A stretch of DNA of 39,708 nt from positions 1 to 39,708 of the forward strand of contig MGTS01000003.1 of the NCBI GenBank assembly GCA_001799565.1, written 5' to 3'. The notes under the pieces were generated by a model. It did no database searches and had not been told where the DNA came from. It saw only the letters and a list, made by a program, of their open reading frames with translations. This DNA comes from Elusimicrobia bacterium GWA2_51_34 (GTDB lineage: Bacteria > Elusimicrobiota > Elusimicrobia > Elusimicrobiales > UBA9959). Positions 3,508 through 27,983 of the stretch are shown piece by piece. Made by a program: the position numbers and the translations under genes. How positions within the stretch are numbered: position 1 is the stretch's first letter; each line of letters opens with the position of its first letter.

Positions 3508-3531
3508 TAACATTACTACTCAGGGGAGACA

Positions 3532-3618
3532 GAATCCAGTAGTCAGAATTCAGAATAGTGAAATCTTTCTTTTCATTGGCGGAATTATTCTGACTACTGG
3601 ATTCCGACTTCTGGCTAC
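3532..3618. repeat. Word-repeat hairpin 2 (CAGAATTC/GTAGCCAG family)
   Basis: Arms 3532-3549 and 3587-3604 are perfect reverse complements over 18 bp (GAATCCAGTAGTCAGAAT), and the right side continues in the same word to 3618. It shares its words with the hairpins at 9795 and 27890. It lies between the cdaR remnant and the next gene. Confidence 0.85.
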
Positions 3619-7622: not shown

Positions 7623-7671
7623 TCCAACTCCCGGTTTACATCTACCTTAAAATTTTGCCACAAAAAACTGG

Positions 7672-7759
7672 CGGAAGGAGTGGGATTCGAACCCACGGTA
7701 CGCGTTAAGCATACATCAGTTTTCAAGACTGACGCCTTAAACCACTCGGCCATCCTTCC
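7672..7759 (-). tRNA. tRNA-Ser (anticodon TGA)
   Basis: On the minus strand, acceptor GGAAGGA pairs with TCCTTCC, followed by D-arm GGCCGAGTGGTTTAAGGC. Anticodon stem TCAGT/ACTGA encloses CTTGAAA (anticodon TGA). A long variable arm and T-arm GTGGG-TTCGAAT-CCCAC follow. It is 88 nt, class II. Its first 23 nt overlap the 3' end of the GIY-YIG frame, whose stop codon TAA is supplied by the D-loop. Confidence 0.95.
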
Positions 7760-8078
7760 CTAAATCATTGCTTATTCTAGCGGCACCAAGTGCACAGTGC
7801 CCGAATTTTTTCCGCCGGAGGCGGACCCGCCGGATTGTTTGGCGGGCAAAAACCCATTTTCTCCCTGCCCCGGATTTTAGAAAGTTTTCCCGCCTGCGGG
7901 CTTCGGTGTAATTACGACAGTTTTCCTCATAAACTAGCTTCCAAGGCCTTCCCGCTTTTGTGAATCTTGTCTTTCCATGATTATGGGCCACCAAACGAGT
8001 ATTAGCATTCTCGGTTCTAGTAGAGCCGGTATAAAATTTATCTAGAGCTTCACTATATAGAACATATACGCTTGCCAT
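7737..8078 (-). CDS. Single-domain GIY-YIG nuclease-family protein
   Basis: The first 85 or so residues are a compact GIY-YIG domain (YhbQ/UvrC-like small family). VYVLYSEALDKFYTGST carries the GIY- and YIG-equivalent tyrosines at about 4-18. It is followed by RL..HN.G, the 'TKAGRPWKLVYEE' strand, then the EAR.RE..LKSG.GR.W signature helix with the catalytic glutamate. The natural family end is near residue 85. The remaining tail is translated from a 36-bp double palindrome (7811-7846), spacer, and the first 23 nt of tRNA-Ser(TGA), which encodes GKDGRVV and stop. Copies of the same palindrome flank the gene on both sides in the same orientation. Such proteins cut or join branched DNA in related families; the role here is unknown. 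Confidence 0.8.
   Translation of the reverse strand: MASVYVLYSEALDKFYTGSTRTENANTRLVAHNHGKTRFTKAGRPWKLVYEENCRNYTEARRRENFLKSGAGRKWVFARQTIRRVRLRRKKFGHCALGAARISNDLGKDGRVV
7811..7846. repeat. 36-bp double palindrome, copy 1
   Basis: On the minus strand it reads CCCGCC, 9 bases, GGCGGG, TCCGCC, 3 bases, GGCGGA: two adjacent 6-bp-stem hairpins. It is 36 bp like the copy at 8096-8131 and shares the loop AAACAA-CC. It lies within the 3' tail of the GIY-YIG frame. Confidence 0.8.
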
Positions 8079-8095
8079 AAAACTTTTCCGGTTTT

Positions 8096-8131
8096 TCCGC
8101 CTAAGGCGGACCCGCCGGGTTGTTTGGCGAA
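8096..8131. repeat. 36-bp double palindrome, copy 2, in tRNA anticodon loop
   Basis: Minus strand: TTCGCC, 9 bases, GGCGGG, TCCGCC, TTA, GGCGGA. It has the same length and layout as the copy at 7811. It falls between CTTG and AAA of the anticodon loop of the tRNA-Ser remnant. Confidence 0.8.
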
Positions 8132-8146
8132 CAAGACCGACGCCTT

Positions 8147-8191
8147 TCCGCCATTACGACTTTGGCGGACCCGCCAGGTAGTAGTGGCGGG
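8147..8191. repeat. 45-bp double palindrome, copy 3, in tRNA D-loop
   Basis: Minus strand: CCCGCC, 10 bases, GGCGGG, TCCGCC, 11 bases, GGCGGA. The stems are identical to the other copies while both loops differ. It falls between GGTTT and AAGGC in the D-loop of the tRNA-Ser remnant. Confidence 0.8.
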
Positions 8192-8219
8192 AAACCACTC
8201 GGCCACCTCTCCCTAAAAA

Positions 8220-8419: not shown

Positions 8420-9778
8420 ATGGGAAAATTATTCGGAACTGACGGTATAAGGGGTGTGCCCTGGGAGTATCCGTTTACCGTTGATTTTATACGGAAAATA
8501 GGCTCCGCCGCGTCGCTGGTCCTTTCAGGCTGCGGGAAAAAACGCCGCGCGGCCCCCGTTGCGCTTATAGGGATGGATTCAAGGGCTTCCGGCCCGCTTA
8601 TAAAGAAGGCGCTGGTTGAAGGTTTGTCGGCTCATAACTTTAAAACGATTGATTTGGGGATTATCTCCACTCCCGCGGTGGCCTATCTGGTTAAAAAGGA
8701 AAACGCCGATTTCGGCATAGTGATTTCGGCAAGCCATAATCCGCCGGAGTTCAATGGAATAAAGTTTTTTTCCCGCGCCGGTTTGAAGCTCAGTCCGGCG
8801 ATTGAAGCCAAAATAGAAAAACTCCTGCTTTCCGACGCCAGCCTCCCGTTTAAAACCTCAGGGCTTGATATTCATAAAAAAGACTATTCCTCCGATTACG
8901 AAGATTTCATAAAAAGCACTCTGCCGCGCGGTTTTAGTCTTAAGGGCCTTAAAATAGTTCTGGATTGCGCCAACGGCGCCGCCTATAAAACAGGGCCGCG
9001 TATTTTCAGGAACCTTGGAGCCGATGTAAAAGTGCTTGGCAATAAGCCGGACGGCAAAAATATAAACCTGGGCTGCGGGGCGCTGTATGCCGGTAAAATG
9101 GCGGCCGCCACCGTCCGGGAAGGGGCTTTCTGCGGAGTAAGTCTTGACGGAGACGCAGACCGTTGTATTTTTTCCGATGAAAACGGCGCGGTGCTTGACG
9201 GCGACGATCTTATGGCCATGGGCGCCGCTTACCTGCTTGAAAAGGGCCGCCTTACCAACCGCAAGGTGGCGCTTACTTTTATGTCAAATTACGGCCTGAT
9301 AAAATATCTTGAAACCCTTGGCGTAAAAACGGCGCAGGTTCCCGTGGGCGATAAGAACGTTACCGACGCCATGGAAAAAGAGGATCTGAAAATAGGCGGG
9401 GAGTCCAGCGGGCATATCATTTTCCGCGAGTTCGCGCCCACCGGCGACGGGATACTTACAGCCGTGCAGATACTTGCAGCGGCGCGCGACCTTGGCCAGC
9501 CTCTGAGCTGGTTTAAAAAGCACTGGAAGCGCTTTCCACAGTGTCTTGAGGCGCTTAAGGTCGCTCACAAACCTCCGCTTCGCACAGTGCGGGGTTTCAG
9601 CGACAAGGTTTCCAGGTTTGAAAAACAGCTTAAGGGCAACGGGCGCATTTTTATAAGGTATTCCGGCACCGAGCCGCTGCTGCGTATTTTAGTGGAGGGC
9701 GAATCCCGGCTGGAAATAAAAGGCATAGCCGAAGATTTATTGTCGCATTATAAAAAGCATTCAGGGGCGTTAAAGTAG
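8420..9778 (+). CDS. glmM: Phosphoglucosamine mutase
   Basis: GlmM converts glucosamine-6-phosphate to glucosamine-1-phosphate on the way to UDP-GlcNAc, for peptidoglycan and lipopolysaccharide. The 452-residue alpha-D-phosphohexomutase has the phosphoserine loop ISASHNPPEFNGIK (catalytic Ser105), the metal-binding DGDADR (within SLDGDADRCIF), the sugar-binding GGESSGHIIF, and the phosphate-binding RYSGTEPLLRILVEG near the end. The 'FGTDGIRGV' start is typical of GlmM. glmS (10795) and glmU (22365) in this window complete the route from fructose-6-phosphate to UDP-GlcNAc, although they are not in one operon. Confidence 0.95.
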   Translation: MGKLFGTDGIRGVPWEYPFTVDFIRKIGSAASLVLSGCGKKRRAAPVALIGMDSRASGPLIKKALVEGLSAHNFKTIDLGIISTPAVAYLVKKENADFGIVISASHNPPEFNGIKFFSRAGLKLSPAIEAKIEKLLLSDASLPFKTSGLDIHKKDYSSDYEDFIKSTLPRGFSLKGLKIVLDCANGAAYKTGPRIFRNLGADVKVLGNKPDGKNINLGCGALYAGKMAAATVREGAFCGVSLDGDADRCIFSDENGAVLDGDDLMAMGAAYLLEKGRLTNRKVALTFMSNYGLIKYLETLGVKTAQVPVGDKNVTDAMEKEDLKIGGESSGHIIFREFAPTGDGILTAVQILAAARDLGQPLSWFKKHWKRFPQCLEALKVAHKPPLRTVRGFSDKVSRFEKQLKGNGRIFIRYSGTEPLLRILVEGESRLEIKGIAEDLLSHYKKHSGALK

Positions 9779-15609: not shown

Positions 15610-16454
15610 CTTTGGGCGTATGCTCCACCGGCTCAAGGCTTAAACTGGCGGTTTTTGACGGCAAAAAATTTTATTGCGCCCAGCGGCGCGTGTTTAACCA
15701 GGAAAAACCTCTTTTTCCAATGATAAACAAACTGCTGGGGGGCGCCGGACTTGGGGCTGTTAAAATTTTTTGCGCCGTAAGGGGGCCGGGGAGGTTTACC
15801 GGTATAAGGATAGGCCTTACGCTTGGCCGTGTTCTTGAAGCTCTGGCCGGCGCAAAAATTTATTCAGTCACCCTCTTTGAAGTAATGGCTTTGCAGGCTT
15901 TTGAGAGCGCGAATTTTAAAAGCTGGGCAAAACGCCGCCAAAAAACCAAAATAGCGGTGTTAATGCGGGCCTTTAAAGACGAGTACTTCTGCCAGGTGTT
16001 TCAAGTAACAAGCGAGAAACAGCCAGTCGGGAGTCCTGGAGTCTTGGAGTCCAAAAGTCAGGAATTTAAGATTCAAGATTCCGGATTCAAGATTGGAAAA
16101 CTCTCAGACTCTCAGACTCCCAGACTCCCAGACTCCCAGACTTCAACTCCCGAGCCTTCAACCCTCTTCAAGGCTGTTGAGGAACCGCAATGGCTGAAAG
16201 TGCCTGAAATGAAGGAATATCTTTCGGCACTCGGGCCGGAGCTTTTTGTGATCGGGGATGCCGAAGAAGATCCATCCGTTTATACTCTTGTCCCGGCGTA
16301 TTGTGCAAAGGCCGGTTCCGGAATTTCAAAGATAATCCCCGCTTATCTGATTAAAACCGCCCTGGCCCGGAAAAACCGGAACTCCGCCCCGCTGTATCTT
16401 AAACCGGCGAGGTATGAATTGGAACAGAAAGCTGGTAGGCCGGTAAGCCGGTAG
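15594..16454 (+). CDS. tsaB: tRNA threonylcarbamoyladenosine biosynthesis protein TsaB, with in-frame repeat insertion
   Basis: TsaB is the ASKHA-fold scaffold that binds TsaD in t6A synthesis. The 286 residues include the N-terminal strand pair ('ITLGVCSTGSRLKLAVFDG') and the characteristic GPGRFTGIRIGLTLGR, followed by 'VTLFEVMALQAF' and 'VLMRAFKDEYFCQVF'. From about residue 143 to 188 the protein is low complexity (repeated DSQTPRLPDSQT), encoded by a word-repeat hairpin (16024-16152). The normal fold appears to resume at about 195-258 ('LFVIGDAEEDPSVYTLVPAYCAKAG...IIPAYL'). The last residues and the stop are encoded in the next hairpin (16431). Whether the protein still works is unknown; both ends of the fold are intact. 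Confidence 0.88.
   Translation: MAKEITLGVCSTGSRLKLAVFDGKKFYCAQRRVFNQEKPLFPMINKLLGGAGLGAVKIFCAVRGPGRFTGIRIGLTLGRVLEALAGAKIYSVTLFEVMALQAFESANFKSWAKRRQKTKIAVLMRAFKDEYFCQVFQVTSEKQPVGSPGVLESKSQEFKIQDSGFKIGKLSDSQTPRLPDSQTSTPEPSTLFKAVEEPQWLKVPEMKEYLSALGPELFVIGDAEEDPSVYTLVPAYCAKAGSGISKIIPAYLIKTALARKNRNSAPLYLKPARYELEQKAGRPVSR
16024..16152. repeat. Word-repeat hairpin 9 inside tsaB (GGAGTC family)
   Basis: The left arm 16024-16052 repeats GGGAGTCCTGGAGTCTTGGA. The right arm 16100-16152 repeats its complement (CTCAGACT, then CCCAGACTCCCAGACT). The inner loop has a second word (AAGATTCAAGATTCC). The frame stays open throughout. Confidence 0.85.
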
Positions 16455-16526
16455 GCTAGTATGCTATGACCACTCAGAAAACTTCTTTAAGCATGCCCGC
16501 ATACAAGCATACCAGCCTACAAGCAT
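16431..16526. repeat. Word-repeat hairpin 10 (GTAGGCT family)
   Basis: The left arm 16431-16465 repeats GCTGGTAGGCCGGTAAGCC and GTAGGCTAGTATGCT. The right arm 16490-16526 is the imperfect complement. It supplies the last codons and stop of tsaB and fills the tsaB-rimI gap. It is preceded by CAGAAA, the same lead-in as hairpin 13. Confidence 0.85.
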
Positions 16527-24872: not shown

Positions 24873-25607
24873 ATGGAACAAATAATAGTGGAAGCTCAGA
24901 TCAGGGGAACAATAGGCGGCAAGAAAGGCCTGGCTGTTTTAAGGCAGGGCGGAAGCATTCCCGCAGTTATTTACGGTACCGGCAAGCCGGTGGAGCATGT
25001 TACCGTGGGGGAAAAAGAAATACTCTCCGTGCTGAAGAAAGGCGCCAACTCCCTTGTTAAAATAAAATACTCAAACAATGAGGATACCGTCATCCTTAAG
25101 GAAGTGCAGAAGCATGTTGTTACCGGAAAGCTCCTGCACATAGATTTCCAGCGCATATCGCTGACCGATAAAATAAAGGTAAAAGTGCGCGTGAAACTGG
25201 TGGGAGAGGCCTACGGGGTAAAAGTGGAGGCTGGCATTCTTGAGCACAACATGAGGGAATTGAATGTGCTCTGTCTGCCGACCGATATTCCCAAAGAAAT
25301 TGAAATTAACATCACTGAGCTTCACCTTAACGGCGTAATCCGCGTAAAAGAAGTTAAATCAGATAAGGCGGAAATTATTGAAGACGCCGAGCATATTGTT
25401 GTAAGCGTGGTCGCGCCCAAAGAAGAAAAGGTTGAAACGCCTGTGGCGGCCGCGGGCGCTACGGCGGCAGAACCTGAAGTTATCGCCAAGGGCAAGAAAG
25501 AGGAAGGTGAAGAGGGCGCCGAGGCCGCTGCCGGAAAGGGAGCCAAGCCGGCGGCCGATTCTGGCGGCAAGCCGGAAGATAAAAAACCGGCTGCCGGTAA
25601 GAAATAG
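24873..25607 (+). CDS. rplY: 50S ribosomal protein L25 (CTC family)
   Basis: L25/CTC binds 5S rRNA. The start at ATG 24873 (AGGGAG upstream) is preferred to one at 24840, which lies in the hairpin arm. Residues 1-95 are the 5S-binding L25 domain (QIIVEAQIR, 'AVIYGTGKPVEHVTV', 'GANSLVKIKY', 'VTGKLLHIDFQRIS'). Residues about 96-185 are the beta domain of CTC-type proteins ('VEAGILEHNMRELNVLCLPTDIPKEIEINITEL'). Residues about 190-244 are a lysine/glutamate/alanine-rich low-complexity tail, longer than usual. The order prs-rplY-pth is standard. Confidence 0.94.
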   Translation: MEQIIVEAQIRGTIGGKKGLAVLRQGGSIPAVIYGTGKPVEHVTVGEKEILSVLKKGANSLVKIKYSNNEDTVILKEVQKHVVTGKLLHIDFQRISLTDKIKVKVRVKLVGEAYGVKVEAGILEHNMRELNVLCLPTDIPKEIEINITELHLNGVIRVKEVKSDKAEIIEDAEHIVVSVVAPKEEKVETPVAAAGATAAEPEVIAKGKKEEGEEGAEAAAGKGAKPAADSGGKPEDKKPAAGKK

Positions 25608-25615
25608 CGCAGAAA

Positions 25616-25696
25616 GCTGGTAGGCTTGTAGGCTAGTATGCTTTCAGGTAATTCCTAACTAGACCTACCGGCATACACGCCTACCAGCATACCAGC
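25616..25696. repeat. Word-repeat hairpin 13 (GTAGGCTT octamer)
   Basis: The left arm 25616-25642 reads GGTAGGCT-TGTAGGCT-AGTATGCT, an 8-bp period. The right arm 25664-25696 is the imperfect complement. The left arm and its CAGAAA lead-in are nearly identical to hairpin 10. It lies in the rplY-pth gap. Confidence 0.87.
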
Positions 25697-27889: not shown

Positions 27890-27983
27890 CAGGTAGACAG
27901 GATTCAGTAGCCAGAATTCAGAATAGCAGAACCTTTCTCGTGGCCGGCGTTCTCATTCTGACTCCTGGCTTCTGGCTACCTGA
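27890..27983. repeat. Word-repeat hairpin 14 (CAGAATTC/GTAGCCAG family)
   Basis: The left arm 27890-27924 (CAGGTAGACAGGATTCAG, TAGCCAGAATTCAGAAT) pairs with the right arm, about 27955-27983 (ATTCTGACTCCTGGCTTC, TGGCTACCTG). Its word is shared with the hairpins at 3532 and 9795. It lies between divergent genes. Confidence 0.85.

Follow-up and report, generated by a model that had tools for sequence, protein, structure and literature searches.

A minimal GIY-YIG nuclease gene paired with a replacement tRNA recurs at bacterial tRNA genes and resembles a homing-type cassette

The closest described systems come from fungal mitochondria and from phages. In the mitochondrial mORFs of Allomyces macrogynus (atp6) and Glomus sp. 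(atp6, atp9, cox2 and nad3), a host gene harbours an endonuclease gene that is accompanied by a foreign version of the gene end it displaced, and a remnant of the original end persists; most of these enzymes are of the LAGLIDADG type, with atp9 as the GIY-YIG case (PMC3630166). SegB, found in T-even phages, is a homing endonuclease of the free-standing GIY-YIG kind. According to the part of PMC13096335 that deals with it (citing Brok-Volchanskaya 2008), SegB adjoins tRNA genes, cuts inside them and drives amplification of the tRNA-segB segment, and its motif, RAWTSGAAC, is the complement of the T-loop.

We analysed a 39,708-nt stretch of the Elusimicrobia bacterium GWA2_51_34 genome (contig MGTS01000003.1; hereafter the window), which carries a GIY-YIG nuclease gene between a broken and an intact tRNA-Ser(UGA) (Table 1). 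As in the mORFs, the nuclease comes with the displaced gene end, which is duplicated or foreign. However, mORFs occupy protein genes of mitochondria whereas the cassettes described here occupy tRNA genes of bacterial chromosomes, exist in 5' and 3' versions in about ten phyla, and contain palindromes, which PMC3630166 does not describe for mORFs. The cassette shares with SegB a GIY-YIG enzyme tied to tRNA genes, but SegB is phage-borne and the same part of PMC13096335 describes no split or replacement tRNA. Nor was sequence kinship to SegB found, as tblastn of the window protein against 50,697 phage records gave no match and its best PHROGs hit reached only E 0.04, none being significant. A search of plasmids with tblastn gave no match either, and IMG/VR yielded five loci only, one of them with a tRNA; a phage or plasmid origin was rejected on these grounds.

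Table 1. Features of the split tRNA-Ser locus and its landmark gene, in window coordinates.
Feature	Position	Strand	Remark
Broken tRNA-Ser(UGA) piece 1, 5' end to D-loop (GGGAGAGGTGGCCGAGTGGTTT)	8192..8213	-	part of joined match to congener G001
Palindrome 1, 45-nt double hairpin within the D-loop of the broken tRNA	8147..8191	-	
Broken tRNA-Ser piece 2, 3' side of D-stem to anticodon loop (AAGGCGTCGGTCTTG)	8132..8146	-	
Palindrome 2, within the anticodon loop of the broken tRNA-Ser (CTTG^AAAA)	8097..8131	-	
Broken tRNA-Ser piece 3 (AAAAACCGG), end of tRNA fragment	8088..8096	-	
GIY-YIG nuclease ORF, 113 aa	7737..8078	-	
Palindrome 3, in frame, C-terminal tail of the GIY-YIG ORF	7811..7846	-	
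Intact tRNA-Ser(UGA), replacement copy	7669..7759	-	first 23 nt = last codons and stop of the ORF
glmM-like landmark gene	8420..9778	+	

Read along the minus strand, the split tRNA-Ser pieces with two palindromes are followed by the ORF with its palindrome and then by the intact tRNA-Ser(UGA). Direct copies of the palindrome bracket the nuclease gene (7807-7849 and 8092-8134, 88% identical), as the initial annotation had claimed, and its reading of the end of the ORF, stop codon included, as borrowed from the intact tRNA was borne out. The broken tRNA-Ser that it placed next to the right-hand palindrome is real and larger than was stated, but contains that palindrome rather than lying beside it; its D-loop holds a third palindrome, beyond the two first reported. 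Rfam finds only three tRNAs in the whole window and no group I intron ribozyme between the tRNA halves; with the downstream tRNA complete, a group I intron was rejected. The GIY-YIG domain covers residues 1 to about 72 of the protein, and the remainder is a tail encoded by palindrome and tRNA sequence. The match to Pfam PF01541 has an E value of 4e-10 and 40.3 bits (curated cut-off 22.6), and Y5, Y16, R28 and E64 are invariant, and G18 nearly so, in the nuclease alignment. The closest solved structures, BH0048 (1zg2), EF2693 (1ywl) and SLX1, relate the protein to SLX1 and the small GIY-YIG proteins of UPF0213/COG2827, for which the open-licence literature searched describes no tRNA-inserted architecture. 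The locus also resembles tRNA-integrating genomic islands, whose insertion likewise yields a fragment of the tRNA alongside an intact one. In contrast to these islands, the cassette has no integrase (a 316-bp unit from Zunongwangia, described below, contains the GIY-YIG ORF only), its unit is about 0.3 kb long and in most cases it duplicates the 5' end.

Empty alleles, as expected for a homing element, are present in close relatives. The syntenic uninvaded site in the congener G001 consists of one tRNA-Ser(UGA) in divergent orientation upstream of glmM, and many family members share this arrangement, with an intact tRNA-Ser(UGA) just upstream of glmM. Joined together, the three tRNA pieces of the window match the tRNA-Ser(UGA) of G001 at 43 of 44 positions, whereas the fragment matches the window's own intact tRNA-Ser at only 38 of 44, an allele mismatch to be read with the caution that alleles vary inside the genus, another congener (G002) having yet another tRNA-Ser allele. 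The intact copy itself is nearer to tRNAs from other genera. In genus g4 (L118) a different nuclease occupies the same glmM-linked tRNA-Ser(UGA), and this site has therefore been invaded at least twice. An exact pair of empty and filled alleles comes from Zunongwangia. Genome G109 has one uninvaded tRNA-Arg(UCG) and no nuclease, and its upstream flank is identical at 283 of 300 positions to that of the filled allele in Z. atlantica G101. There, tandem amplification has produced four head-to-tail 316-bp units (L237:969-2307), each consisting of tRNA positions 1-32, a palindrome and the GIY-YIG gene and differing from one another at 0-14 positions, followed by one intact tRNA-Arg(UCG) identical to that of G109. 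G110 and G111 have one unit each, and in G110 the fragment and the intact tRNA-Arg are different alleles. A candidate foreign replacement next to displaced native sequence, the signature of co-conversion, is thus found both in the window and in G110. Elsewhere the fragment equals the intact copy over 26-72 nt (several cases, including L004, L118 and L148), so that an invaded allele would there retain any recognition site lying wholly within the tRNA.

The same layout recurs well beyond this locus. The window genome holds a second cassette, in which a 5' tRNA-Ala fragment, a short palindrome and a GIY-YIG gene precede an intact tRNA-Ala(CGC), inside which the ORF stop falls. Across the 59 genomes of the window family, GIY-YIG genes with a downstream same-strand tRNA occur at Ser(UGA) (three genomes), Ser(GCU), Ala, Asn, Gln, Leu and Pro, and 7 of 12 tRNA-adjacent genes are immediately preceded by a 5' piece of the tRNA that follows them (0 of 300 shuffles). 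YhbQ-like GIY-YIG genes with an upstream tRNA-Gln, also found in the family, are conserved neighbours that differ from the cassette, and were rejected as examples of it. A scan of GTDB by nuclease peptide motif, blind to tRNAs, returned 79 loci, and strand and side follow clear rules among them: 47 have a tRNA on the same strand within 130 nt and none has one on the opposite strand (P 4e-16). Chance proximity, expected for about 0.6% of genes if 50 tRNAs per 3 Mb are assumed, was rejected against these 47 of 79. The downstream tRNA overlaps the ORF in 13 of 38 loci of the GTDB set, and in 28 of 38 loci tested outside the window family the gene is preceded by a 5' fragment of that tRNA (0 of 200 shuffles). 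A mirror type, with an intact tRNA, the nuclease and then a 3' fragment of that tRNA, is significant in 11 loci. Fragments often terminate close to the anticodon loop. Altogether, one or the other layout is found at tRNAs for 16 amino-acid types in about ten phyla; besides Elusimicrobia, the hosts include Patescibacteria, Bacteroidota, Omnitrophota, Nitrospirota, Planctomycetota, Verrucomicrobiota, Calditrichota, Acidobacteriota and Chloroflexota. The genomes surveyed are mostly MAGs, the Zunongwangia atlantica and Sediminicola records being named strains. This recurrence across phyla and tRNA types suggests that selfish, self-rescuing genes living on tRNA genes form a family that has gone largely undescribed. 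No earlier description of chromosomal GIY-YIG-tRNA cassettes was found in the open-licence literature, and the novelty is accordingly provisional.

Some GIY-YIG genes near a tRNA have no clear fragment (L003, L039, L122, L116), and some of these look vertically kept. In two congeners a GIY-YIG gene is kept between tRNA-Gln and tRNA-Pro (L003:1332-1944, L039:1332-1929), with the first bases of tRNA-Pro repeated inside a hairpin ahead of it. Such retention across a genus would suit a nuclease that serves its host near tRNAs, in tRNA DNA repair, phage defence or tRNA maturation. We regard this as extremely improbable for the cassettes given their patchy presence, their kinship across phyla, the duplicated and broken tRNA beside each gene and the existence of a broken nuclease copy. 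The latter, in Kaiserbacteria (L138:2001-2352), is the closest relative of the window protein (67%); it has an in-frame stop and no clear 5' fragment match, and is a decaying nuclease.

The phylogeny of the nucleases is linked to their targets. On a tree of 87 rows and 83 alignment columns, in which the short alignment leaves deep forks weak, the tRNA label changes 29 times, compared with 55 on average after shuffling (none of 200 shuffles reached so few). The window nuclease belongs to a clade of six (support 100/99), all at tRNA-Ser, whose hosts are Elusimicrobia, Kaiserbacteria, another Patescibacteria, Parcubacteria and Planctomycetota, and a clade at tRNA-Leu (n=13) mixes Bacteroidota with Patescibacteria. 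Horizontal spread linked to one target site, a hallmark of homing elements, is therefore seen in the Ser and Leu clades, both of which cross phyla. Most nucleases without a tRNA form one separate clade (98/99) and serve as an internal negative control. These results bear on whether the nuclease may be a mere passenger that does little or nothing, in units spread through tRNA homology by RecA recombination or as small circles. A single crossover in the 5' part of a tRNA predicts exactly the order of fragment, gene and intact tRNA, and the tandem Zunongwangia units and the repeated fragments at L100 and L171 do resemble recombination between tRNA 5' ends. Tandem duplication, too, could yield this layout with an idle nuclease. 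Nevertheless, a passenger role does not explain why no gene other than a GIY-YIG nuclease occupies this place, why its lineages track tRNA identity across phyla or why a mirror type exists, and we consider it unlikely.

It was further proposed in the initial annotation that the nuclease mobilises the palindrome. REP-type repeats are short, multicopy, GC-rich hairpins that are often doubled. The window palindrome resembles them in being a dispersed multicopy palindrome, but differs in its setting, the loops of broken tRNAs that adjoin a GIY-YIG gene; no RAYT transposase was found within the window cassette. In the window genome (2.63 Mb, 43 contigs) the 34-nt palindrome pattern, allowing up to 3 mismatches, has 33 matches against 1 for a reversed control, and the 20-nt core 55 against 2. 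The window contains other repeats as well: two 86-nt copies (74%) of a MITE-like repeat with 23-nt inverted ends (3524-3609 and 27892-27977), and a separate dispersed inverted repeat family of the GTAGGCTxGTAxGCT type, up to 96% complementary (2502-2573, 16411-16526 and 25596-25643).

Palindromes were counted in the window family and, separately, in 25 nuclease-bearing genomes. That copy number should track the gene held in part: the two highest counts in the family (55 and 84) come from the genomes with the window-type GIY-YIG gene, and a congener without the tRNA cassette has 1, but G004 has about 11 exact copies and no recognised tRNA-GIY-YIG, and G003, G011 and G076 have cassettes without the window palindrome family. 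The expected proximity of GIY-YIG genes to palindrome and tRNA was likewise recovered, with inserts of at least 14 nt in 38 of 45 tRNA fragments, but the palindromes differ in sequence by phylum at the same tRNA positions. Insert lengths are mostly 19-21, 30 or 45-46 nt, perfect stems average 6.5 bp against a background of 3.6, and 39 of 51 inserts lie at D-, anticodon-, T- or variable-loop junctions (expected 43%, P 1.5e-6). The anticodon-loop position of the window's palindrome 2 is shared by L119 (Elusimicrobia) and by L140 and L142 (Patescibacteria).

We also observed palindromes in tRNA sequence away from any nuclease. Elsewhere in the window genome (L279:1300-1590; G000:C17, near 64511-64581), a near-complete tRNA-Ser(GGA) copy with palindromes in its D-loop and T-loop directly precedes an intact tRNA-Ser(GGA); the nuclease is absent, and this is probably a decayed cassette. 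Palindrome-bearing tRNA-Thr remnants stand beside an intact tRNA-Thr, again with no nuclease, in the Peregrinibacteria genome G092 (L222:783-1071, L232:851-1019). In G086 (Flavobacteriales), a 92-nt tRNA-Asp(GUC) within a tRNA operon, besides which no other tRNA-Asp match was found in the genome, carries a 20-nt palindrome exactly between T-stem and T-loop (L249:750-841). From L222, L279 and L249 it follows that palindromes enter tRNA sequence without an adjacent nuclease.

A palindrome that is a non-autonomous element, with the bracketed gene as its source, would fit its presence in most tRNA fragments and tRNA-linked cassettes, the loop enrichment and the coincidence of the top two counts with the window-type nuclease. 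We find it highly unlikely, however, since most copies in the genomes are unlinked to tRNA or nuclease, unrelated palindromes sit at the same spots in different phyla, and palindrome-split tRNA copies exist without GIY-YIG (L222, L279), which also leaves the repeat as cargo unsupported. The minimal mobile unit initially suggested survives as a mobile-looking unit centred on the GIY-YIG gene and tied to tRNAs; the moving unit would be the nuclease with the replacement tRNA rather than the palindrome. The palindromes may inactivate the broken copy and so keep it from competing for the tRNA 3' half, may interrupt the nuclease site, or may simply accumulate in tRNA loops that are free of selection. 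A role as stabiliser against recombination between repeated tRNA ends is weakened by L118 and L148, which retain 71-72 identical nt, and was set aside.

The best explanation is therefore a mobile cassette of the homing type whose targets are tRNA genes, given the empty and filled sites, the recurrence, the same-strand proximity, the tRNA-tracking tree, the second cassette and the SegB precedent, and we put its probability at roughly three in four; spread by cleavage and repair is what we infer from these patterns. The cassette gene would encode a minimal nuclease of the GIY-YIG type, related to UPF0213 and SLX1, that cuts an uninvaded tRNA gene, here the tRNA-Ser(UGA) upstream of glmM; such cutting is plausible because SegB cuts inside phage tRNA genes. 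Repair templated by the donor would then bring in the nuclease gene and a complete tRNA, or its missing part. The recipient would retain one working tRNA, while the displaced native end would persist as a fragment beyond the nuclease gene. As this fragment would remain under the native tRNA promoter, the nuclease is probably co-transcribed with the tRNA, which RNase P would release from the joint transcript. More tentatively, and with doubt prevailing, self-rescuing tRNA-homing genes with their own replacement tRNA may be pan-bacterial, with the palindromes a second tRNA-targeting element aimed at D, anticodon and T loops, possibly mobilised by the nuclease or co-evolving with it, and tolerated even in the only tRNA-Asp found in G086. 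If so, that palindrome would imply tolerance or removal at the RNA level. The homing proposal is open to direct test, using a small enzyme on short DNA targets.

To conclude, bacteria cannot do without tRNA genes, which rank among their most conserved DNA, and an element that invades these genes while supplying a functional substitute has targets that it can use in different phyla, which fits the 57-67% protein identity among the Elusimicrobia, Patescibacteria and Planctomycetota copies. Under the proposal, many small GIY-YIG genes that carry no annotation beyond nuclease or UPF0213 acquire a plausible role, and some broken tRNAs and tRNA-derived protein tails would be accounted for. The proposal also means that tRNA alleles could be replaced through lateral transfer.
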